From contig JAGXKM010000014.1 in NCBI GenBank assembly GCA_018335275.1, positions 1 through 35,494 of the forward strand: a DNA stretch of 35,494 nt. The letters run 5' to 3'. Of the stretch, positions 208-12,547 are shown piece by piece. The translations under genes and the position numbers were made by a program. The DNA comes from Anaerolineales bacterium. Its GTDB lineage: Bacteria; Chloroflexota; Anaerolineae; Anaerolineales; UBA11858. Numbering within the stretch: position 1 is the stretch's first letter; the number at the start of each line of letters is the position of its first letter. The notes under the pieces are model-generated. The model searched no databases. It was given only the letters and a program-made list of their open reading frames with translations, and was not told the origin of the DNA.

Positions 208-1722
208 TTAATGCCGGAAGTGGCGGGTATGGGTGAAGAGCATGGCTAAACCCCGGGCGTCTGCTTCAGCGATCACGTCCGGATCCCGGATGGATCCCCC
301 AGGTTGGACGACGGCGGTCACGCCCAATTCGTGCGCCAGCTGGATGCCGTCGGGGAAAGGGAAAAATGCATCGCTGGCTAAAACCGCTCCCTGGGCTCGA
401 TCACCCGCGCGCAGCCCGGCCATGCGCACGCAGTCCGCGCGGTTGGGCTGACCGCCTCCAATCCCCACCGTGAACCGCTTGCTGCCTTCGATCCTGGCCA
501 GGAGTACAGCATTGGATTTGACATCCATCACTGCCTGCCAACCAAATTTGAGGGCAGCCAATTCCTGAGGTGTAGGCTCTCTCTCTGTGATAACTGTCCA
601 GCGTGGTGATTCCCCGGGGTCCCCGGTATCAGCTTCCTGCTCAAGGTATCCACCTGGTATCGTACGCAGTTCCCGGCCGGGAAGGGGTTTCTCCAGCGGG
701 GCTTTGATCAGACGCAGGTTTCCCTGTTGGGAAAGCGGTTCGAGGGTTGGAGGAGAGAAGCCGGGCGCGATCAAGCATTCCAGGAACATATCACCCAACC
801 TATCCACAAAGGCAGGTGTGATGGTCCGGTTGCTGGCGATCACGCTGCCAAAGGCGGAGGTGGGATCGCTGGCAAGGGCAAGGCGCAGGGCTTCTGCTGG
901 TGAATCAGCTTCCGCCACGCCGCACGGGCTGGTATGTTTGACGACGGCAGCCGCAGGGCCTTCAAAACGGCGCACGCAGCGCCAGGCCCCTTCCAGATCT
1001 AACAAATTGTTATAGGAGAGGGCTTTTCCCTGCAGTAAAGTCCCGTGAAATGGTTTTCCTCCCGGTTTCCGGGCATAAAAAGTCGCTTCCTGGTGGGGGT
1101 TTTCACCATATCGAAGTCTTTGGGCTGGGTGAAGGACATGAGTCTTTTCCCGCGGAGTCACGGTGTGTTCTGTGAAGTAACGGGAAATGGCCTGGTCGTA
1201 AGCAGCGGTGGTCGCAAAGGCTTTGTAAGCCATCTCCAGCCGGTAGCCCTTCTTGTCCAGGACGGAAAGGTCGGTAGGGTAATCATCCGGGTCGCTGAGG
1301 ACGGTCACGCGGGTGTAATTTTTTGCTGCGGCGCGCAGCAGCGCTGCTCCGCCGATGTCGATGAACTCCAGGATTTCATCCTCCGAGAGATCGACCCGGT
1401 CGATCATCTCTTGAAACGGGTAAAGGTTGACTACCACCAGGTCGATTCTCGGCCATCCCCGTTCAGTAAGCTGAGCTAAGGCTTCCTCCCTGTCTGGGGC
1501 CAGGATGCCAGCATGGATTGCAGGGTGAAGGGTTTTTACCCGCCCCTCAAACCATTCCCGTTCGCCGGTGATCTCTCGGACCGGAATGACTTCCACCCCG
1601 CCTTTTTCAAGCTCCTGGGCGGTGCCCCCGCTGGCGATCAACTGCCAATCTTCTTCGTGCAAACGGCGTCCCAGCGGGAGTAGCTTTCGCTTATCCCACA
1701 CGGATAATAAGGCTGTTTTCAT
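208..1722 (-). CDS. purH: Bifunctional AICAR formyltransferase / IMP cyclohydrolase
   Basis: 504 aa; N-terminal MGS-like IMPCH ([23 protein letters not shown]) and C-terminal AICARFT ([26 protein letters not shown]). Confidence 0.97.
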
Positions 1723-2522
1723 GATTGAAGCTCCTCAATTTGTTCGCGGTCCATATCTATCCCCACCGGGCGGATGGGGATTCCCTGAGAAAGCAGGTGC
1801 CGTTTTACCTCACCGATGGTCAGCACATCATCGTGGAAGAGCGATGCTGCCAGGGCAGCGTCGGCCTCACCGGTCGTCACAGCTTCGGCAAAGTGTCCCA
1901 CATTCCCCGCTCCTCCGCTGGCGATGACAGGGACATCGACAGCTGCAGCCACGGTCCGGGTCAGCTCCAGGTCGTATCCTGCGAGAGTGCCATCACGGTC
2001 CATGCTTGTGAGCAAAATCTCGCCGGCGCCGTGTTCTACCCCGCGCCGGGCCCAATCCACCGCGTCCATGCCTGTCGCCTGCCGTCCGCCGTAGATATAT
2101 ACCTCCCAGGACCCATCGTCCTTACCTTTGGCATCTATGGCCAACACCACGCACTGGCTGCCAAAGCGCCGGGCGCCATCACTGAGTATCGTGGGGTCTT
2201 TGACCGCCGCGGAGTTGATGCTGATTTTATCCGCGCCCGCCCGGAGGATGACGCGCATATCATCCGCTCCCCGGATGCCGCCGCCTACCGTCAGGGGCAG
2301 GAAGACCTGATCGGCGACCTGCCTGACCATCCCGGCCACGATGTCTCGCTTTTCATGGCTGGCGGTGATATCCAGAAAGACCAGTTCGTCCGCTCCCATT
2401 TGATCATATATTCTGGCCTGTTCTACCGGGTCGCCGGCGTCCCGGATATTCACGAAATTGACCCCTTTGACCACCCGGCCCTGATCGATATCCAGGCAGG
2501 GGATAATCCGTTTGGCTAGCAT
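1719..2522 (-). CDS. hisF: Imidazole glycerol phosphate synthase cyclase subunit
   Basis: [37 protein letters not shown]-barrel HisF motifs ([19 protein letters not shown]). Confidence 0.97.
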
Positions 2523-3269
2523 TTAATGCCCTCCTCGATTGAACTTTAATGCCCGGGCCAAATCCAGCTCCTTTTCATAAAGGGCCCGGCCGATGATCAC
2601 GCCCCACAGCCCAGCGTCTCGCGCAGCGCGGATGTCATCCAGGGAAGCAACGCCCCCGGCTGCGATGACGTTCAACACGGTTTCTTCCTGGAAAATACGA
2701 GCCGCTTCCACATTCAGGCCCTTTCCTACCCCGTCCCGGGTGATGTCGGTGTACACGGACCATTCCAGCCCTCTTTTCCGCAGCATCCGACCAAAACCCA
2801 GGGGCTCAAGTGCGGTGCCTTCTGTCCAACCTTGCACCCGGATTTTGCCTCCCCGGGCATCCACCCCGACCACAATCCGGTCGCTTCCATAATGAACAAG
2901 GGCCCACTCAACCAGTTCTGGGTTTTGGGCGGCAGCCGTGCCCAGGATCACTCTCTGGATCCCCAGGGAAAGCAGTCTGTCAATGTCCTCCCGGGAGCGA
3001 ATCCCGCCGCCCAGTTGGACTTTGGCTCCAGCCTGGTGCGCTTCCTTAACGATTTTTTGTATACCGTCCTGATTCGGGTTGTCTTCCTCCCCGAAAGCGC
3101 CGTCCAGGTTGACCACATGAAGCCACTGAGCGCCTTGTTTTAACCATTGTCGGGCAATAATACCCGGATGGTGATCATAGGTGGTCTGGTGGTCAGGGTC
3201 TCCCTGCCGCAGGCGCACCACCTGGCCGCCGCGCAGGTCAATGGCTGGGAATACGTTAAAATCTGTCAT
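2523..3269 (-). CDS. hisA: ProFAR isomerase
   Basis: FPAIDLRGGQVVRLRQGDPDHQTTY, LGGGIRS, TDITRDG, AAGGVAS. Confidence 0.96.
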   Translation of the reverse strand: MTDFNVFPAIDLRGGQVVRLRQGDPDHQTTYDHHPGIIARQWLKQGAQWLHVVNLDGAFGEEDNPNQDGIQKIVKEAHQAGAKVQLGGGIRSREDIDRLLSLGIQRVILGTAAAQNPELVEWALVHYGSDRIVVGVDARGGKIRVQGWTEGTALEPLGFGRMLRKRGLEWSVYTDITRDGVGKGLNVEAARIFQEETVLNVIAAGGVASLDDIRAARDAGLWGVIIGRALYEKELDLARALKFNRGGH

Positions 3270-3290
3270 CGGTTCTCATTTTACGATCAC

Positions 3291-3899
3291 TCAGCAGCGC
3301 TGGACGAAATTTTTCAGCATCGCCAGGCCTACTTGCTGGCTTTTTTCAGGGTGAAACTGGACCCCATACAGGTTCCCGCGCTGGACGATGGATGCATATT
3401 GGTCCCCATACTCTGTGACCGCCAGGACATCCTCTTCGCGAGTGGGGGCGCAGAAATAGGTGTGGTTGAAATATGTGTAACTTCCCGCGGGGATATTTCC
3501 CAGGAGCTCGCTCTGCCGGAGAGGTTGGATCTGGTTCCAGCCGGTATGAGGGACCGTCAGCTCCCCTTCAGGAAAACGGACGACCCGTCCGGGGAGCAGG
3601 CCCAACCCGGGGTGTTCCCCGTGTTCCTCGCTGAGATCAAAAAGCATTTGCATGCCGACACAGATCCCCAGCAGCGGCGTGCCAGCCTTTACAGCTTCCA
3701 TCAGCGGGTTTTCCAGATTCCTGCTCAGCAGACCTTGCATGGCGTCTGCGAACGCCCCTACACCGGGCAGGACTAACTTATCTGCCTGCCTTATGTGATC
3801 CGGATCCCTGGTAAGGTTCACATCTGCCCCCGCCGCTGTGAGGGCCTTTTCCACCGAGCGCAGGTTTCCCACGCCGTGATCGATCAAGGCAATCTTCAT
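3291..3899 (-). CDS. hisH: Imidazole glycerol phosphate synthase glutaminase subunit
   Basis: MKIALIDHGVGNLRSVEKAL; class I glutaminase nucleophile GICVGMQ; FHPEKS. The ORF-track start (3905) is a TTG; ATG at 3899 has an AGGAG upstream. Confidence 0.96.
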   Translation of the reverse strand: MKIALIDHGVGNLRSVEKALTAAGADVNLTRDPDHIRQADKLVLPGVGAFADAMQGLLSRNLENPLMEAVKAGTPLLGICVGMQMLFDLSEEHGEHPGLGLLPGRVVRFPEGELTVPHTGWNQIQPLRQSELLGNIPAGSYTYFNHTYFCAPTREEDVLAVTEYGDQYASIVQRGNLYGVQFHPEKSQQVGLAMLKNFVQRC

Positions 3900-3908
3900 C
3901 CTCAACTC

Positions 3909-4496
3909 CTATAAGGTACCCTTTGTGCTTGGAACTTGTCCCCCCCGCCGCTCGTCGGGTCGGCAGGCTGCATCCAGGGCCCGTCCTAAAGCTTTGAATA
4001 AGGCTTCTGCTTTGTGATGGTCGTCCTTTCCATATAACATGCGGGCGTGCAGGTTGCAGCGGGCGGTGACCGCAAAGGATTCCAGAAAATGGGAGAAAAG
4101 GCTGGTGGCGATCCCGCCCACTTGTGGCCCGTTCCACTCGATCTGGATCACGCTGTAGGGGCGGCCGGAGAGATCTACAGCGATCTGGACCAGGGCCTCA
4201 TCCATGGGGACGAGCGCCGATCCCATGCGGGTGATCCCTATCCGCTCTTTCAGGGCCTGGTCGAAAGCCTGGCCCAGGGCCAGGGCGCAGTCTTCCACGG
4301 TGTGGTGTTCGTCGACTTCAAGATCGCCGCGGGCGCTCAGTTCGAGGTCAAAGTTTCCGTGCACCGCCAGGTGGGTGAGCATGTGGTCCAGGAAACCTAT
4401 CCCTGTATCGATCTCTGCCTGTCCGTTTCCGTCCAGATTAAGCTTGAGGGTGATTTCAGTTTCCGCGGTCTTGCGTTGAATGGTTGCTTTTCGCAT
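3909..4496 (-). CDS. hisB: Imidazoleglycerol-phosphate dehydratase
   Basis: [50 protein letters not shown]. Confidence 0.97.
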
Positions 4497-4522
4497 GGGA
4501 GCCTCACTTTATCGTTTTCTGG

Positions 4523-5620
4523 TTAGAGTTTCCGCAGGGCCTGGATCAGGGTCTCGGTGTCGGATGGCTTGCCGACGCTGATCCGGATGTGGTCATCCAG
4601 CCCGGGTTTATTGAAGTACCGGATCAGGATTCCCTGCTGGGACAAGCGTTCTTTGACCTGTCCGGCATCCCGTCCTTTCACACGGCAGAGGATAAAATTT
4701 GCCCGGGAGGGGTAGGGGGCCAGCCAGGGTACCTCCCGCAGATTCTTGTCCAGCCTTTCCCGTTCAGCAATGATTGCCTGGGTTTGTTCCTTGAGCTGGT
4801 CCCGGTGCCTTAATGTGGCCCTGGCTGCTGCAGCGCCAGCAGCATTAACATTATACGGCTGTTTGATTTTCCAGAGGGCCGGGGTGATCCAGGCCGGGAA
4901 GATCCCGTAACCCACCCGGAGTCCGGCCAGGCCGCCCCACTTGCTGAAGGTACGCAGCACGATCAGGTTTTTATAAGACTCGGTCAAAGGTATGGCGCTG
5001 GTCCCTTCAGGCGCGAAAGCGATGTAGGCTTCATCGACCACAACCAGGAGGGGTAGCTCCAGCAGGCGCTCCAATGCAGCCCGCGACAGCAGGCCGCCAT
5101 CGGGGTTGTTAGGAGAGGCCAGGAAGAGCAGTTTGGGATGATAGACCTGGACTGCGTCTTCAATGGCCGGAAGGTCAAGAGAGAAGTCCTTCTTTCTGGG
5201 CACCTTCAGGGTGCGGGCAGCGTTGACGTCCGCGTCAAAGGCATACATGCTGAAGGTGGGGGGGCAATCCAGGATGAGATCATCCGGATCAAGCGTCACG
5301 CGTAGGATGAGATCGATCAATTCGTCCGCCCCGGCTCCGGCCAGGATCCTCTCCGCCGGGATATTGTGGACCCGGGACAGATCCTGGCGCAGATAGCGAG
5401 ATTCCGGGTCAGGGTAAATATGGAGGGAGGAAAAATCGTTCAGGGCTTCTTTCGCCTGGGGAAGGGGACCGTATGGGTTCTCATTGGCATCCAATTTGAT
5501 CAGTTCGTCTTCCGGGATCCCCAGGCGTTCGGAAAGGACATCAAAAGGGTGAATAGGCTGGTAGGGCGGCATATCCTGGATGTGGTCCCGGAGCAGGGTG
5601 CGGGGATTGAATGTGTTCAT
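4523..5620 (-). CDS. hisC: Histidinol-phosphate aminotransferase
   Basis: Fold-type I PLP aminotransferase: KLDANENPYGP, SPNNPDG, VDEAYIAF, RTFSKWGGLAGLRVGY. Confidence 0.95.
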   Translation of the reverse strand: MNTFNPRTLLRDHIQDMPPYQPIHPFDVLSERLGIPEDELIKLDANENPYGPLPQAKEALNDFSSLHIYPDPESRYLRQDLSRVHNIPAERILAGAGADELIDLILRVTLDPDDLILDCPPTFSMYAFDADVNAARTLKVPRKKDFSLDLPAIEDAVQVYHPKLLFLASPNNPDGGLLSRAALERLLELPLLVVVDEAYIAFAPEGTSAIPLTESYKNLIVLRTFSKWGGLAGLRVGYGIFPAWITPALWKIKQPYNVNAAGAAAARATLRHRDQLKEQTQAIIAERERLDKNLREVPWLAPYPSRANFILCRVKGRDAGQVKERLSQQGILIRYFNKPGLDDHIRISVGKPSDTETLIQALRKL

Positions 5621-6930
5621 GATTCACTCCTGAAATCTGCGCTGGCAGCGTGCGCGGTGAGGGATTCCACTCTGGCAATTAGGGCTGCGGTGGGGCTGAG
5701 GTCTTTCCCGGTGTCCGGATCAAGGGCCACCATGCTGCTGATTTTGACGAAATCCATCACGTTCAGGGGGGAAGCAAAGCGAGCGGTCCCTCCCGTGGGC
5801 ATGATGTGGCTGGGGCCGGCCACATAATCTCCCAGGACCTCAAAGGAGTGGTCGCCCAGGAAAAATCCTCCCGCGTTGTTGATCTTTTCCGCCAGACCAA
5901 CAGGGTCTTTCACCGCCAGGCAGAGGTGTTCAGCGGCATAATCATCTGCCAGCTTTGCGGCGGTCTTCAGGTCAGGCGTGATCACCGCTCCACCTTTGTT
6001 TTCCAGGGACTGGAGGATGATCTCAACCCGGGACAGTGTTTCAACCTGCTGGGCCACTTCCCGCTGCACAGCCAGGGCCAGCTTCCGGGAGGGTGTGAGG
6101 AGGATGGCGCTGGCCAGCACGTCGTGTTCTGCCTGGGCCAGCAGGTCGCTGGCTACCCATTCAGGGTTGGCGCTCTCATCGGCGATGACCATGGTTTCCG
6201 TGGGACCGGCCAGGCCGTCCAGGCCCACGATCCCATAGGCCTGCTGCTTGGCGATGGTCACGAAGAGGTTGCCGGCGCCGACGATTTTATCCACCTTGGG
6301 CACGCTTTCCGTGCCGAAGGTCATGGCGGCGATGGCCTGGGCGCCGCCGATTTGATAGACCTCTTCTATTCCGCACAACTGGGCGGAAGCCAGGATGGTG
6401 GGATCCGGGTTGGGCGGGGTGGTGACGATGACTCGTTTCACCCCTGCCACCTGGGCAGGGATGACGGACATCAGCAGAGAGGAGGGCAGAGGTGCGGTCC
6501 CACCCGGCACGTAAACCCCCGCCCGCTGCACCGGGGTCACCCGTTGGCCGAGGCTGCCCCCCATATCCGTTGTAGTCCAATCCGGCAGGGGCTGGCGCTG
6601 GTGAAAATCGCGGATGCGCTCCACAGCGGTGTCCAGGGCATCCTTTATATCTTCTGGTAGGTGCCGGTAAGCATCTTCCAGTTCTTCCGCAGGAATCAAA
6701 AATGTGTCCAGGTCTGTGTGATCCAGAACCTGGGACCACCTTTGGAGGGCGGCATCCCCTTCGTCGCGCACGGAAGCCATAATCTGTCCCACAGCCTGGG
6801 TTGGGCTGACCCCATTTCCGAAGATTTCTTCCACGCCGCGTTTGATTTTTTCCGGGACCTGTTGGGTGTTGAGAGGCTGGCGCTTTAAGATAGTTTTTTT
6901 TGCAGTATCTACGTCATAAAGTTTCAACAT
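5617..6930 (-). CDS. hisD: Histidinol dehydrogenase
   Basis: YVPGGTAPLPSSLLMSVIPAQVAGV, AGPTETMVIAD, DYVAGPSHIMPTGGTARF. Likely start is MLKLYDVDTA (6930), not the 7011 start in the track. Confidence 0.96.
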   Translation of the reverse strand: MLKLYDVDTAKKTILKRQPLNTQQVPEKIKRGVEEIFGNGVSPTQAVGQIMASVRDEGDAALQRWSQVLDHTDLDTFLIPAEELEDAYRHLPEDIKDALDTAVERIRDFHQRQPLPDWTTTDMGGSLGQRVTPVQRAGVYVPGGTAPLPSSLLMSVIPAQVAGVKRVIVTTPPNPDPTILASAQLCGIEEVYQIGGAQAIAAMTFGTESVPKVDKIVGAGNLFVTIAKQQAYGIVGLDGLAGPTETMVIADESANPEWVASDLLAQAEHDVLASAILLTPSRKLALAVQREVAQQVETLSRVEIILQSLENKGGAVITPDLKTAAKLADDYAAEHLCLAVKDPVGLAEKINNAGGFFLGDHSFEVLGDYVAGPSHIMPTGGTARFASPLNVMDFVKISSMVALDPDTGKDLSPTAALIARVESLTAHAASADFRSES

Positions 6931-7960
6931 CGGAGTTATCTCCCGCGAATTGGGTCGGATTTTTATCAAGGGCATCCAGCATGGCTTTGTAGGCGTCCGG
7001 CTCTTCCTCAAAGATATATTTCACGGAGGTGACAACCACGCCGCTGCCTCCGATGGCGCGCAGTTCACTGATCGCCTGGGCGAGCTGGTCTTTACGGACC
7101 ACAATATGTACCGCGTACCAGCCCCCGTCCTTCCTCGTCATCACCTGAGAGATAGTCGGGCCCTGCAGGCCGCCTATGACCTGCTGGGTTTGCATCTTCT
7201 CAGCGATGGCCCGCGGGGATTCTCCCCGCATGTTGGCAAACACAGCCACGTTATTTTTTGCCCTCAAATGGGCGACGATGAATTCCAAAAGCTGGCGAGC
7301 CACATCCAACGCCTCCGGTCTTGTTTCCAGGGCTGGGCGGTGAGCGACCAGACAGGCCTGTGAGGAGAGGATTTCCCCGTCCTGCAGCGGTTTGAGGTGA
7401 TTGGCCCGCATAGTTGTCCCTGTGGAAACCAGGTCGACGATCAAGTCAGTGTGGCCGATGAGGGGGGCGATTTCCAGGGTACCTTCCGCGGAGATGTAAT
7501 CCACATCTTCCAGTCCATGTTCCTGGAAGAATGTCTGGGTCAGATGGGGAAATTTGGTGGCCACTCGCAGATCTTCGTTTTCGCGCTCCTGTAAGGTTTC
7601 CAGGTCCCTCATGGTGTTAATATCTTCCCAGGCTTCGGGGACGATCACATTCAGGGTGCATTGACCGTAACCCAGCTCCTGATGGAGGGGCAGGATGCGG
7701 TCATTAATACCCCCTTGCTCAGAGACCATGTCCCATCCTGTGATCCCGAAATCAACGGTGCCGTCGTGCACGCTGACCGCGATGTCCCCTGCCCTTTGGA
7801 AAAGGACTGTCACCCCGGGTAAGCTGGGGATGGAGGCCTGAAACTGGCGGGGGTTGGGTTTATATACCTGTAATCCAGCTTTGGCTAACAGGTCCAGGGT
7901 GTCATCAGCTAAGCGCCCTTTACTGGGCAGGGCAAGCCGGATTTCTTGTCTTTGCGGCAT
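6914..7960 (-). CDS. hisG: ATP phosphoribosyltransferase, long form with C-terminal regulatory domain
   Basis: 348 aa: IRLALPSKGRLADDTLDLL, DFGITGWDMV, DLIVDLVSTGTTMRAN; C-terminal extension expected for long HisG. Confidence 0.95.
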   Translation of the reverse strand: MPQRQEIRLALPSKGRLADDTLDLLAKAGLQVYKPNPRQFQASIPSLPGVTVLFQRAGDIAVSVHDGTVDFGITGWDMVSEQGGINDRILPLHQELGYGQCTLNVIVPEAWEDINTMRDLETLQERENEDLRVATKFPHLTQTFFQEHGLEDVDYISAEGTLEIAPLIGHTDLIVDLVSTGTTMRANHLKPLQDGEILSSQACLVAHRPALETRPEALDVARQLLEFIVAHLRAKNNVAVFANMRGESPRAIAEKMQTQQVIGGLQGPTISQVMTRKDGGWYAVHIVVRKDQLAQAISELRAIGGSGVVVTSVKYIFEEEPDAYKAMLDALDKNPTQFAGDNSDVETL

Positions 7961-7982
7961 AATTTCTCCTTGATTTGTGGTT

Positions 7983-8016
7983 AAAAATAAAAAGCGCCCT
8001 CCTCGCGGAGGACGCT
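7983..8016 (-). terminator. Intrinsic terminator in the hisG leader (attenuator candidate)
   Basis: Minus strand AGCGTCCTCC-GCGA-GGAGGGCGCT-TTTTATTTTT: 10-bp stem (one G.U), GNRA tetraloop, U-rich tract, about 20 nt before hisG ATG. Confidence 0.9.
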
Positions 8017-8044
8017 GTGTGGAGCAATGTGGTTGCTTACCAGT

Positions 8045-8125
8045 CTACTTAAGCACGTCCTGTCCGGTCGGAGCCGCCGGGGTGTAAGCATGATTATGGT
8101 GGGACGTGTGCACCTGATAGTTCAT
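8045..8125 (-). CDS. Putative histidine leader peptide, 26 aa
   Basis: ATG..TAG on minus strand: MNYQVHTSHHNHAYTPAAPTGQDVLK; 4 His within residues 6-12; lies between a promoter and an intrinsic terminator ahead of hisG. Confidence 0.8.
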   Translation of the reverse strand: MNYQVHTSHHNHAYTPAAPTGQDVLK

Positions 8126-8135
8126 AATTGCTGGC

Positions 8136-8164
8136 ATTCTAACACGGACCCGGTGGGCTGTAAA
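8136..8164 (-). promoter_or_regulatory. Putative housekeeping-sigma promoter of the his operon
   Basis: Minus strand TTTACA (8164-8159), 17-bp spacer, TAGAAT (8141-8136). Confidence 0.7.
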
Positions 8165-8203: not shown

Positions 8204-9241
8204 TTAAGTTTTGGATCCAGAAGCTGTGTCCAGCAGCGACAGGGGCTTTTGGTTTCCGCCTGCGGCCCGGAACAGGCTGATCAGAAAATAAACAGCTCCA
8301 ACCACGGCCGCCGGCAGGCCAAATAGGATGTGGGAATGGATATGCCAGCCCAGCAGGATGAACAGGCCGTAGGCCGCGGAGGCGTTGAAGGGAATGAGCA
8401 GCAGCAGGGGCAGATTCACCACCTGCGGCTTAACCGTAAATGCAGGCCACGGCCGGTCAGAGGGGGCTCTCCGGCGGTGGCTGGAAAGGGCCCACCAGCA
8501 TAAGCTGAGCAGCAGGGGCAGGAGGAGAGCGGCCAAGGGGAGGGGAATGACCGCGTTGAACAGATAGCTGAAACTCAGCAGCAAACCCATGGGGATCAGC
8601 AGCCAAAGGGAGGGTTGAAAGGGTTTGTTTGACCATTGGCCCAGCAGCCAGTAAGCCGGCAGCAGGGGAAAGGAAGCGATCATGCTGAACAAAACAAATT
8701 TAGCTGGGGATTGTATCAAACCCAGATCGGTGATGGGCCACAGCACCCATAATCCCCAGGTCAGGCCCAGGATGGAGAAATACAGGGTGTTTTTCCCTGG
8801 TTTCCCTTCCGCCAGGCGGCGTGGAAGCCAGTACAGGCCGAGGACTACATCCACCGGTGCGTGCCAGGCCAGGGCAGTAAAGCTGATCGAGAAGGGTATG
8901 CTTTCATAGAAGGTAGCCACCACCATTCCCTCCAGCATCCAACCGTACGCGGCACCGGCCAGGAACAGGGCAGGAAACGACCGGATCTGGAAGTGCTCGA
9001 TCAGACTGAATAGCAGGTAGGCCATCAGACTGTAGATCAGGAAAAGCTGAACCAGTTCTCCAACGGAGGCCGGAGGCAGACCGGGATTGGTGGTCTGTCC
9101 GTAAAAGGCGAATTCGGAAAAGTATGTCAGGATGTATCCACCAGCCAGCGAGCGAAGCATTGTCTGTAAAAAACTCATGGTTGATATGTTGATTCCTCCA
9201 GGGCCATTTGGAATTGGAAATGTCAAAACCCTCATGTTCAA
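8204..9241 (-). CDS. Multi-pass membrane protein, related to 9248-10258 and 11498-12547 (start uncertain, possibly 9178)
   Basis: Strongly hydrophobic; motifs FSE, GAAYGWMLEGMVVATFYE, WHA shared with two neighbouring ORFs. Confidence 0.8.
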   Translation of the reverse strand: MNMRVLTFPIPNGPGGINISTMSFLQTMLRSLAGGYILTYFSEFAFYGQTTNPGLPPASVGELVQLFLIYSLMAYLLFSLIEHFQIRSFPALFLAGAAYGWMLEGMVVATFYESIPFSISFTALAWHAPVDVVLGLYWLPRRLAEGKPGKNTLYFSILGLTWGLWVLWPITDLGLIQSPAKFVLFSMIASFPLLPAYWLLGQWSNKPFQPSLWLLIPMGLLLSFSYLFNAVIPLPLAALLLPLLLSLCWWALSSHRRRAPSDRPWPAFTVKPQVVNLPLLLLIPFNASAAYGLFILLGWHIHSHILFGLPAAVVGAVYFLISLFRAAGGNQKPLSLLDTASGSKT

Positions 9242-9247
9242 AACCGT

Positions 9248-10258
9248 TCAGGATGGATTTTTGGGCCTGTTGATAATATTCCTTCCCACAGCCCACAGGT
9301 AAGCTGCACCGCCGATCAGCGCCTGGAAAAAAGGTGTAGATTCATTGATTAATTCCGGTATATAGTCTCCTGAAGAGTGGATGTACGCCAGCCAGTACAC
9401 CAACGAGGCGGCTGCGGGCATAGCCAGCAGCGGCAGCGTTTCATGGAGCCTGATCCTACCTCCCAATTTTTCCAATATCGAGCTGGTGGGTTGCTTTCTG
9501 CGCTGAATCTCCAGGGGCAGGAGAACGAGTCCCAGCAGCACGATTAGCTTGATAATGGCCAGCGGTTGAACAGGGATGACCACCAGGCCAAACAAACCCG
9601 TCAGGGTAAGGAGCAAAATTCCTTTCTCCGGACCGGAAAGCCGGAACGTGGTTTTCCAGCAACCCCTACCCAGTAGCCAGTGAACGAGCATCAAAATCAA
9701 AGTGAAGTACAACGTGTAGAGGGTGAATTCCTGCGGCGGCCATTTCCCGGGGCGGACCGGTTCGCCAGCCCTGGCCAGGGCTTCAAACTCGGCGATATTT
9801 TCTGGCAGCCATTGGGTAAGGGACCATAAACCCCAGAATAATCCCAACAATAAGGAGGCTGTTAGCAGTTTCTGCCAGCGCTTTTTAACCAGCCAGTCGC
9901 GGAGCAAATACCAGCCGAAGAACATGCCGAGTAAACCGTGCCAGCCGATGAAATACGCCGGCATCACGGGGTCAAGTAAGCCGGCTTCGTAGATCACGGG
10001 CGTGAGGATTCCCTCGACGCAGAAAGCATACAGGGCGCCTATCAGCACCATACCGGAATGGTCCCTGACCCGGAAAAAGTGGACAGCCCACAGACAGGCT
10101 GCTGCAGGAACCGCGTAGTACAGGACTAGGCCCAGCAGCTCGTAACCCTGCATGTACCAGTATGCTTTCTCGGAGAAGATGGTCAGCACGGTGGAAGTCA
10201 GCAAGACAAAGATCAACCGCCGGACGATCCTGAGGAAACCAGAATAAAAATTGTTCAT
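9248..10258 (-). CDS. Multi-pass membrane protein, paralogue of flanking ORFs
   Basis: 336 aa hydrophobic; motifs FSE, GALYAFCVEGILTPVIYE, WHG. Confidence 0.85.
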   Translation of the reverse strand: MNNFYSGFLRIVRRLIFVLLTSTVLTIFSEKAYWYMQGYELLGLVLYYAVPAAACLWAVHFFRVRDHSGMVLIGALYAFCVEGILTPVIYEAGLLDPVMPAYFIGWHGLLGMFFGWYLLRDWLVKKRWQKLLTASLLLGLFWGLWSLTQWLPENIAEFEALARAGEPVRPGKWPPQEFTLYTLYFTLILMLVHWLLGRGCWKTTFRLSGPEKGILLLTLTGLFGLVVIPVQPLAIIKLIVLLGLVLLPLEIQRRKQPTSSILEKLGGRIRLHETLPLLAMPAAASLVYWLAYIHSSGDYIPELINESTPFFQALIGGAAYLWAVGRNIINRPKNPS

Positions 10259-10386
10259 TGTTTGTTATTCCTGAAAATCGTCGAGATTGCAAAGGGAAAT
10301 TAGCCTCAGCCTGATGTTCAGGGAGTACCGAACATATCCTCCTCTGGCCAGGGTGAGAGCTGAGCGGCCTGAACTTACCCACATTT

Positions 10387-11505
10387 TTACTCCCAACCCC
10401 GGGCAGCTGCTTCCTGCTTGAAGATCTGGTAGCCGGGTTTGTTTTTCCCTTTCCCGGGGTACGTGCGCAGTCCCAGGGTGCGCAAAAATTCCCCGAAGGC
10501 CCGGTTGGAAAGGCCGTAATACTGAGTCAGTTCCTTTACGGAGGAACCGGATAAATCCGAAAGCCAGGAGTAGGAGAGCAGGGTGATTTGCTCCGCGTGC
10601 TCATCCCAGGCTGAGAACATATGCCGGATGAATTCGGCCTGATTTTGGGGGCTGCTGCCGTTGGCTTCTCCCGAGGGATATCCGATTTCCGTGATCTGAA
10701 TTTCCCGGTCTGGATAGGCTTCGACCAGACGCTGAAAATCCGATTGGATTACCCCCGGTTCCCTGACGGAGAAATCGTCCTGCAGCGGGTAGTAGGTGGT
10801 CATGATCACATCGCTGGATTGGTTGAGCGATCGGGCGAATCTGGCGGAGGGTCCGAGCAGCCCTACGAACTGGACCTTGGTCCCGACCGGGACCCCGGGC
10901 CACAGTGAGCGGGCGTGGTCCGCCCCGGCGGCGTAAAAGGTCTGATAGGCCGCCCAGGCATCGGGACCTGCGCCTAACACACCGTCAATTTCGTTGCCGA
11001 TGGCCAGCGAGGTCAGCTCCAGGCCGGGGATCTGCGTGGCGATATCATCCAGCAGGTCCTGAAAACGAGCAATCACCTCGGGGTGATCAAGGGGTTTTCC
11101 CTGCAGATCCTGGGGAAGGCGGATTTCCGTGGTGTCCAGCACCGCGATCACCAGCGATAAACGGAATCCCTGGGCTGGGTAGTAGTCATTGGCGATGGCC
11201 AGCCAGTTGGGCTCGGGGTTAAAGACCCCGGGAGCGGGTTCCAGTTCATCCCAAAACACAGAAAGGCGGATGGATTCCGCCCCCAGCTGGCGGGCGTGTT
11301 CAATGGCCTGATCGTAATCGCCGTTCTGGGACGGGTTGACGTCTAGCTCCAGGGTCCGCTCACCCTTGGGTAGGGTCTGCTGGCTGATTGCGGTGTCCTG
11401 TTCGGGAGGGATGGTAGCGCTTATCTTCTCCCCGGATTCACCGCAGGCCAGGACAGACAGCAGCAGGGCGGAGAGAAATAACAAATATCGAGATGTCTTA
11501 GGCAT
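10387..11505 (-). CDS. Lipoprotein with GH-A clan (TIM-barrel) glycosidase-like domain
   Basis: Signal peptide with lipobox (LLSVLAC); IRLSVFWDELEPAPG, AIGNEIDG (acid/base NE-type motif) and QITEIGYPSG (nucleophile-type E). Likely start MPKTSRYLLF at 11505, overlapping the upstream stop by 8 nt. Confidence 0.82.
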   Translation of the reverse strand: MPKTSRYLLFLSALLLSVLACGESGEKISATIPPEQDTAISQQTLPKGERTLELDVNPSQNGDYDQAIEHARQLGAESIRLSVFWDELEPAPGVFNPEPNWLAIANDYYPAQGFRLSLVIAVLDTTEIRLPQDLQGKPLDHPEVIARFQDLLDDIATQIPGLELTSLAIGNEIDGVLGAGPDAWAAYQTFYAAGADHARSLWPGVPVGTKVQFVGLLGPSARFARSLNQSSDVIMTTYYPLQDDFSVREPGVIQSDFQRLVEAYPDREIQITEIGYPSGEANGSSPQNQAEFIRHMFSAWDEHAEQITLLSYSWLSDLSGSSVKELTQYYGLSNRAFGEFLRTLGLRTYPGKGKNKPGYQIFKQEAAARGWE

Positions 11506-12547
11506 AGTTTTCTTTTTTCGAAGGGGAAGGTTTTTGAAAGGTGAGTTGGACGGCTCTCGCAAACATGATCAGGCTGAAAAGGATGCCTCCGAACCAGCTG
11601 GCCAGGGCCAGGGGTTCAGCGACGGGGGCCAGCAGCAGTTCCCCGCTGACCGCTGCCAGAGGGAAGACCCCGGCCAATACCAGCCAGAATCCATCCGGAA
11701 ATTTCTCCGAAACTGGAGTCCGGGGCCCATTTTGCGGTTTCGATCCTGGTTTCAGACTCTGCCAGAGCAGGAAGAAGGAGAGAGCGTACAGCAGCCAAAT
11801 CAGGCCCTGGCCGACCAGGCCGGGTACGGCTTCCGGGCGCATCACAACGCCCATGATCAGGTAGAGCAGGGCGGTGGGGATGAGCAGCAGGCGAAATTCC
11901 TTTTTATCCGGCAGCAGCTCGGGCATGGTGTAGGTCCGATCCCGGGTTACCCGCTGCCAGACCAGGACCAGGCCGAGCAACACCGCGGTGGTGGAAAGGC
12001 CGGAAAGCAGGGACTGATCGGCGGAAGGTGAATTTATGCTCTGAAAGACACCGCCGAAGATCACCAGTCCGACCAGGCCCCGGCGGCTGTTCAGCAGCCG
12101 GCCGACAGCGCCGGGAAGGCTCTGGCCGAGAGCCCGGGAGCGGGTGAACAACTTTTCTGCGATCAGCAGGGGAATGATGAAGGAGAACCAGGCATGCCAC
12201 CAGAGCACCAGCACCAGGGTTTCAATGGGGGCCACGCCGCCGATGATCAGGGCCGCGCCCCAGGGCGGTTCCCAGAGCACTTTGGTCAGATAGGCTTCGT
12301 AGAGGCCGAAGAGCATCCCGGCGAAGATCAGGCTGGGAAATCGCGGCCGCGGCGTCAGGTAAACAAGATGGGCGAGGACCAGAATGTGCAGGCCGTAAAG
12401 CGGGACCACCACCAGCAGACCCCAGGCGTGGAAGAAGGGGAACATGTCGGCACCGGAAAAAACCTCGGCGAAGAAGGTGGAGAAAGCGGCCAGGATCATC
12501 CAGAAGAGGGCTTTGTGCTTCCAGGGGATGGGATTTGTATCTTGCAT
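11498..12547 (-). CDS. Multi-pass membrane protein, paralogue of the 8204 and 9248 ORFs
   Basis: 349 aa hydrophobic; FAE, GMLFGLYEAYLTKVLWE, WWHA motif series. Confidence 0.85.
   Translation of the reverse strand: MQDTNPIPWKHKALFWMILAAFSTFFAEVFSGADMFPFFHAWGLLVVVPLYGLHILVLAHLVYLTPRPRFPSLIFAGMLFGLYEAYLTKVLWEPPWGAALIIGGVAPIETLVLVLWWHAWFSFIIPLLIAEKLFTRSRALGQSLPGAVGRLLNSRRGLVGLVIFGGVFQSINSPSADQSLLSGLSTTAVLLGLVLVWQRVTRDRTYTMPELLPDKKEFRLLLIPTALLYLIMGVVMRPEAVPGLVGQGLIWLLYALSFFLLWQSLKPGSKPQNGPRTPVSEKFPDGFWLVLAGVFPLAAVSGELLLAPVAEPLALASWFGGILFSLIMFARAVQLTFQKPSPSKKENYA

Follow-up and report, generated by a model that had tools for sequence, protein, structure and literature searches.

What controls a histidine operon whose first gene lies behind a short, His-rich reading frame and a terminator? 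This question is raised by a stretch of 35,494 nucleotides from an Anaerolineales bacterium, referred to here as the window, in which the operon hisGDCBHAF-purH follows such a leader (Table 1). A first-pass annotation had described a promoter, a 26-codon ORF in which codons 6, 9, 10 and 12 encode His, a terminator and hisG, all of which are present in the sequence as claimed, and had read the arrangement as ribosome-mediated transcription attenuation. This reading is supported by the conservation of the His ORF together with the terminator and by an antiterminator pairing that is specific to each genome. We therefore regard the element, with a probability of about 0.93, as a ribosome-mediated transcription attenuator of hisGDCBHAF-purH that responds to histidyl-tRNA supply.

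Results

Architecture of the leader region

The promoter upstream of the leader ORF has 10 of 12 consensus matches in a consensus scan, with TG ahead of the -10 box, which ends 10 nt upstream of the leader ATG. From the promoter position we infer a transcription start only ~3-4 nt ahead of this ATG, a feature absent from the earlier account, and a predicted 5' UTR of that length leaves no room for a Shine-Dalgarno site. The amino acid whose codons are repeated in the leader, histidine, is the operon's own end product. The terminator (8016-7993) consists of 10 pairs, one of them G-U, with a GCGA loop and a T5AT5 run counting the last stem T. The pairing proposed between AGGACG (8061-8056) and CGTCCT (8014-8009) is confirmed at these coordinates, and the complementarities GCTTAC/GTAAGC and AGCAA/TTGCT were also found in the sequence. 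Missing from the earlier description was a 1:2 helix between CACGTCC (8108-8102) and GGACGTG (8060-8054); with it, the classical set of four segments is complete.

Upstream of the his promoter, at 8204-12547 on the minus strand, lie three similar membrane-protein-like ORFs of 336-349 aa (8204-9241, 9248-10258 and 11498-12547); the two of them that were scanned gave no Pfam match.

Table 1. Features of the his leader and operon in the window.
Feature	Position	Strand	Details
Promoter	8136-8164	-	-35 TTTACA (8164-8159), 17-nt spacer, extended -10 TGTTAGAAT (TGn), TAGAAT (8141-8136)
Predicted transcription start	~8129	-	Inferred from promoter position
Leader peptide ORF	8045-8125	-	26 codons + TAG, MNYQVHTSHHNHAYTPAAPTGQDVLK, no Shine-Dalgarno site
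Regulatory His codons	8090-8110	-	Codons 6 (8110-8108), 9 (8101-8099), 10 (8098-8096) and 12 (8092-8090)
Segment 1 (CACGTCC)	8102-8108	-	Overlaps codons 6-8; partner GGACGTG 8060-8054
Segment 2 (AGGACGTG)	8054-8061	-	Codons 22-24, ends directly before leader stop; pairs with segment 1 or 3
Segment 3 (AGCGTCCTCC)	8007-8016	-	Terminator 5' arm; CGTCCT 8014-8009 pairs with segment 2 (antiterminator)
Segment 4 (GGAGGGCGCT) and U tract	7983-8002	-	Segment 4 8002-7993, U tract 7992-7983; intrinsic terminator 3:4
hisG ribosome binding site and spacer	7961-7971	-	AAGGAG (7971-7966); from sequence
hisG, ATP phosphoribosyltransferase, long form	6914-7960	-	ATG 7960; Pfam HisG + HisG_C
hisD, aminotransferase (hisC), hisB, hisH, hisA, hisF, purH	208-6930	-	Remaining operon; gene list + Pfam

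Conservation of the leader in Anaerolineae

Taken singly, the window offers little statistical weight: the fold of 8130-7961 on the minus strand has a z of -2.2 against shuffles, 4 of 200 of which fold equally well, and promoter- and terminator-like matches in the consensus scans occur about as often as expected when taken alone. Both measures are weak by themselves and were given no weight. We searched for HisG in 101 relatives, in 249 genomes of the class and in 251 of the phylum, and then inspected the upstream DNA. The first-pass annotation had named homologous hisG leaders without a His-rich ORF or terminator as evidence that would count against it. Among the 49 Anaerolineales hisG loci with usable upstream sequence, which come from the set of 101 relatives, there are 45 where hisG is preceded by a short ORF containing three or more His codons in a cluster, and a terminator was called in 44 of these 45; in the remaining one (L050) a hairpin and U run are visible that the scan did not call. 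A further 17 leader loci belong to other Anaerolineae families. Outside the order, L066 has only a bulged hairpin, uncalled by the scan, and L137 shows TGTTACACT, then MLFVTDHHHTLTTVE, then a terminator; the latter was initially set aside because the scan chose a start too far upstream, was recognised on re-reading and is excluded from the statistics. Together with five leaders from the named collection (L005, L006, L007, L009 and L012) and three more from the order (L078, L079 and L084), the total is 70.

Another 93 Chloroflexota hisG loci, each with at least 300 nt of upstream sequence and including family f25 of the same class as well as the other classes sampled, gave no instance of the full element. 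It is because of this conservation, 70 leaders at hisG loci of the class against 0 at these 93 other loci, that the element stands beyond chance, which confirms that the leader observation is real and far from coincidental. The suspicion that the attenuator might be lineage-specific is likewise upheld in this sample, where the full element was not found outside the class Anaerolineae, and the enterobacterial model RF00514 found no match in the window region (E up to 10) or in 20 related loci (E up to 1).

In the homologous leaders, 3-7 His codons are clustered where the window has its own, and beyond this cluster neither the sequence nor the length of the peptide (mostly 13-31 aa) is conserved. 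Matches to the conserved segment-2 motif in the 101 relatives fall at hisG leaders, bar two that lie away from hisG, inside genes, and were dismissed as chance. Short His-containing ORFs at L069, L111 and L125 were rejected on inspection, having no called terminator and surroundings that are not leader-like.

Four Anaerolineales hisG loci have no leader (L037, L038, L045 and L060). At L037 and L045, hisG lies directly behind another long reading frame with neither leader nor terminator, and the operon there therefore appears to be under another promoter. At L060, hisG is preceded by a box resembling an extended -10 and a hairpin resembling a terminator, but a His ORF could not be recognised; this may be what is left of a decayed leader. 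In a quick 60-row HisG tree, leader presence requires 7 changes, compared with 14 when the labels are shuffled, a pattern compatible with an early gain followed by several losses; a single origin would be plausible rather than demonstrated, as many inner branches of the tree are weak. None of 19 Anaerolineales trpE loci has a convincing Trp-rich leader, and leader-peptide control is therefore no general habit of the order.

The operon itself is unevenly distributed in the window's genus. In ten genomes (G000-G009, 84-93% complete), hisB (PF00475) was found in two, G000 and G004, which are also the two where hisG was found; histidine auxotrophy may prevail in the genus, or the his operon may be patchily kept or gained. 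The window's own genome (G000, 89% complete) gave no match for trpE (PF04715) or HMGL-like (PF00682) although the his operon is present; over trpE, leuA (HMGL-like) and ilvB (TPP-enzyme), the searches of this genome returned nothing or one borderline match. The organism may be auxotrophic for several amino acids yet retain histidine synthesis.

Co-evolution of the alternative pairings

Since segment length differs too widely between leaders for a single alignment, we used a swap test, which requires none: duplex energies of segments from the same genome were compared with those of segments exchanged between genomes, for 66 leaders with a called terminator. Segment 1 was taken as everything up to the last clustered His codon, segment 2 as the sequence from there to the terminator, segment 3 as the terminator 5' arm plus loop and segment 4 as the 3' arm. 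The mean energy for 2:3 was -15.4 kcal/mol for own partners against -12.2 kcal/mol for swapped ones (z -10.1, n=66), and for 1:2 it was -23.4 against -18.8 kcal/mol (z -11.3, n=66), while the control pair 1:4 gave a z of 0.5 (n=66). With only one leader per family (n=20), the z values were -5.9 for 2:3 and -5.6 for 1:2, compared with -0.8 and 0.3 for the controls 1:4 and 1:3, and base-shuffled segments gave the same outcome as genome swaps. A compensating change can be seen by eye in L039, which has TCTTGCC/GGCAAGA where L004 and L024 show TCCTGCC/GGCAGGA. The predicted, mutually exclusive 1:2 and 2:3 pairings are thus genome-specific, i.e. co-evolving, by the measure of duplex energy, and the covarying antiterminator pairs expected across related hisG leaders are borne out.

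Folding and ribosome geometry

In the full, ribosome-free window RNA the 1:2 helix has a probability of 0.92. In nascent RNA ending in segment 3, the 2:3 helix reaches 0.93-0.98, both with no ribosome and with one stalled at codons 6-12, whereas a ribosome placed at the leader stop codon in a constrained fold blocks 2:3. Folding with alternative structures, which had been put forward as a check, upholds the antiterminator in nascent RNA and not at equilibrium: once segment 4 is present, the terminator dominates the window folds in every ribosome state, stalled included. Because it prevails even over a stalled ribosome, antitermination must be kinetic, as it is in the classical attenuator model. 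As long as segment 4 has not been synthesised, the window folds prefer 2:3 to 1:2 even when no ribosome is present, and the prediction that an untranslated leader would terminate strongly is therefore not certain.

In 64 of 65 leaders, 9 nt or more separate the last His codon from the 2:3 helix that follows it, the median distance being 20 nt. The centre of this helix lies at a median of 9.5 nt before the stop codon (65 leaders; window value -10.5). These median positions match what stalled and released ribosomes require, and the window itself shows both. The centre falls inside -20 to +16 of the stop codon in 47 of the 65 leaders and outside it in 18, so that the release step fits the homologues unequally.

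A probably leaderless reading frame

All 69 leaders tested have a TAnnnT-like -10 box whose end lies 6-11 nt upstream of the leader start codon, and no SD-like motif is found at -18 to -3 of any of these 69 starts; ahead of the hisG start, by comparison, such a motif is present in 57 of 69 leader loci. A -10 score of at least 6, on a scale with a maximum of 8, is reached at 57 of 69 leader starts, compared with 6 of the 448 remaining ATGs of these regions. This comparison is biased toward a leaderless outcome, in that the -10 score was one of the criteria by which the start was picked from the in-frame candidates. At most loci the chosen start is simply the ATG near the His cluster; those at L007, L033, L058 and L087, among others, are doubtful. 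Given this spacing and the missing SD, the leader ORF is probably leaderless. Leaderless genes in Chloroflexi are reported to amount to a few percent (PMC3160421).

Discussion

We propose that the element would work as follows. RNA polymerase would initiate ~3-4 nt ahead of the leader ATG and the ribosome would start on the leaderless ORF. When charged tRNA-His is scarce, the ribosome would stall at His codons 6-12 and cover segment 1, allowing the 2:3 antiterminator to form and transcription to proceed into hisG. With ample histidine it would reach the stop codon and cover segment 2, whereupon 3:4 would form and terminate transcription.

Could the same features arise without translation of the leader? 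The His-rich frame might be untranslated and the hairpin a plain terminator, or part of a riboswitch or T-box type RNA that reads histidine or tRNA-His directly. The intrinsic terminators are indeed conserved, as this view would expect, yet in-frame His clusters right behind the -10 box in 69 loci would be pointless for a ligand-binding RNA, and the antiterminator partner lies at the ORF end in most leaders. Neither the scan of the window at gathering score nor that of the leader region, run at E up to 10, gave a match to the T-box covariance model or to a riboswitch. We consider this explanation improbable. Even if the frame is translated, the peptide could be the point of it: His-rich peptides can bind metals, and the ORF might encode a small functional protein, for example a metal-binding one, with an ordinary terminator behind it. 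Against this, the peptide is unconserved in length and sequence outside the His cluster whereas the RNA pairing is preserved, and the ORF occurs at hisG and not at trpE or the other places tested, which makes a protein function scarcely credible. A further alternative is control at the level of translation: instead of acting on transcription, the leader peptide would govern whether the hisG ribosome binding site is accessible. Some attenuators are known to be of this type (PMC9413887), and the hisG SD is strong. The window hairpin, however, has a U tract that ends at 7983, ahead of the SD that starts at 7971, and at L017, L018, L021 and L046 the leader stop lies 129-185 nt from hisG with the terminator between them; this arrangement, too, is very improbable. 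Transcription attenuation by a translating ribosome is the reading that we retain.

A broader version of this reading is that the class Anaerolineae possesses an ancient His attenuator that is always leaderless, in which the loading of a ribosome onto a bare 5' AUG contributes to the switch's timing; this would make it a variant distinct from his attenuators whose leaders carry a ribosome binding site. We lean only slightly towards this version. If the start is regularly leaderless, these leaders would provide a natural test set for transcription-translation coupling without a ribosome binding site, and the ~70 divergent leaders supply co-evolving antiterminators.

The closest known counterpart is the enterobacterial his attenuator (RF00514), which shares the His-codon leader peptide, the 1:2, 2:3 and 3:4 alternatives and the terminator before hisG. 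The Anaerolineae leaders differ from it in sequence, structure and lineage (Chloroflexota): their start codon follows the -10 box at a distance of 6-11 nt and lacks an SD, and the Rfam His_leader model RF00514 matches neither the window region (E up to 10) nor 20 related loci (E up to 1). His-leader attenuators have been described in Proteobacteria and Firmicutes (PMC9413887; PMC2965389), in the latter as predicted leaders of the Bacillus cereus group, Peptostreptococcaceae and Erysipelotrichales (PMC9413887) and as leaders of hisZ and hisS* (PMC2965389), and a conference paper on Actinobacteria is cited in PMC4833913. The Firmicutes leaders likewise have clustered His codons, a terminator and antiterminator before his genes and no RF00514 match in the phylum; they belong to a different phylum, and a leaderless start is not described in the accessible parts of these sources. 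An Rfam motif survey that included five Chloroflexi genomes gives, in the part available, no His leader for the phylum (PMC3766115), and the accessible portion of the open-access literature on Chloroflexi, Chloroflexota and Anaerolineae yielded no attenuator of the phylum, though priority is not certain. Within the bounds of that literature, our analysis extends leader-peptide attenuation of his operons to the Chloroflexota.

For the start itself, the nearest parallel is the ilvBNC attenuator of Corynebacterium glutamicum, whose leader is translated without a ribosome binding site, forms three alternative hairpins and has a transcription start one nucleotide from its start codon (PMC11857589, citing Morbach et al. 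2000); that system concerns branched-chain amino acids in Actinobacteria, whereas here the amino acid is histidine. What we describe is most probably the classical His attenuator mechanism, in a lineage where the element seems to be undescribed. Its most distinctive trait is the probably leaderless ORF.
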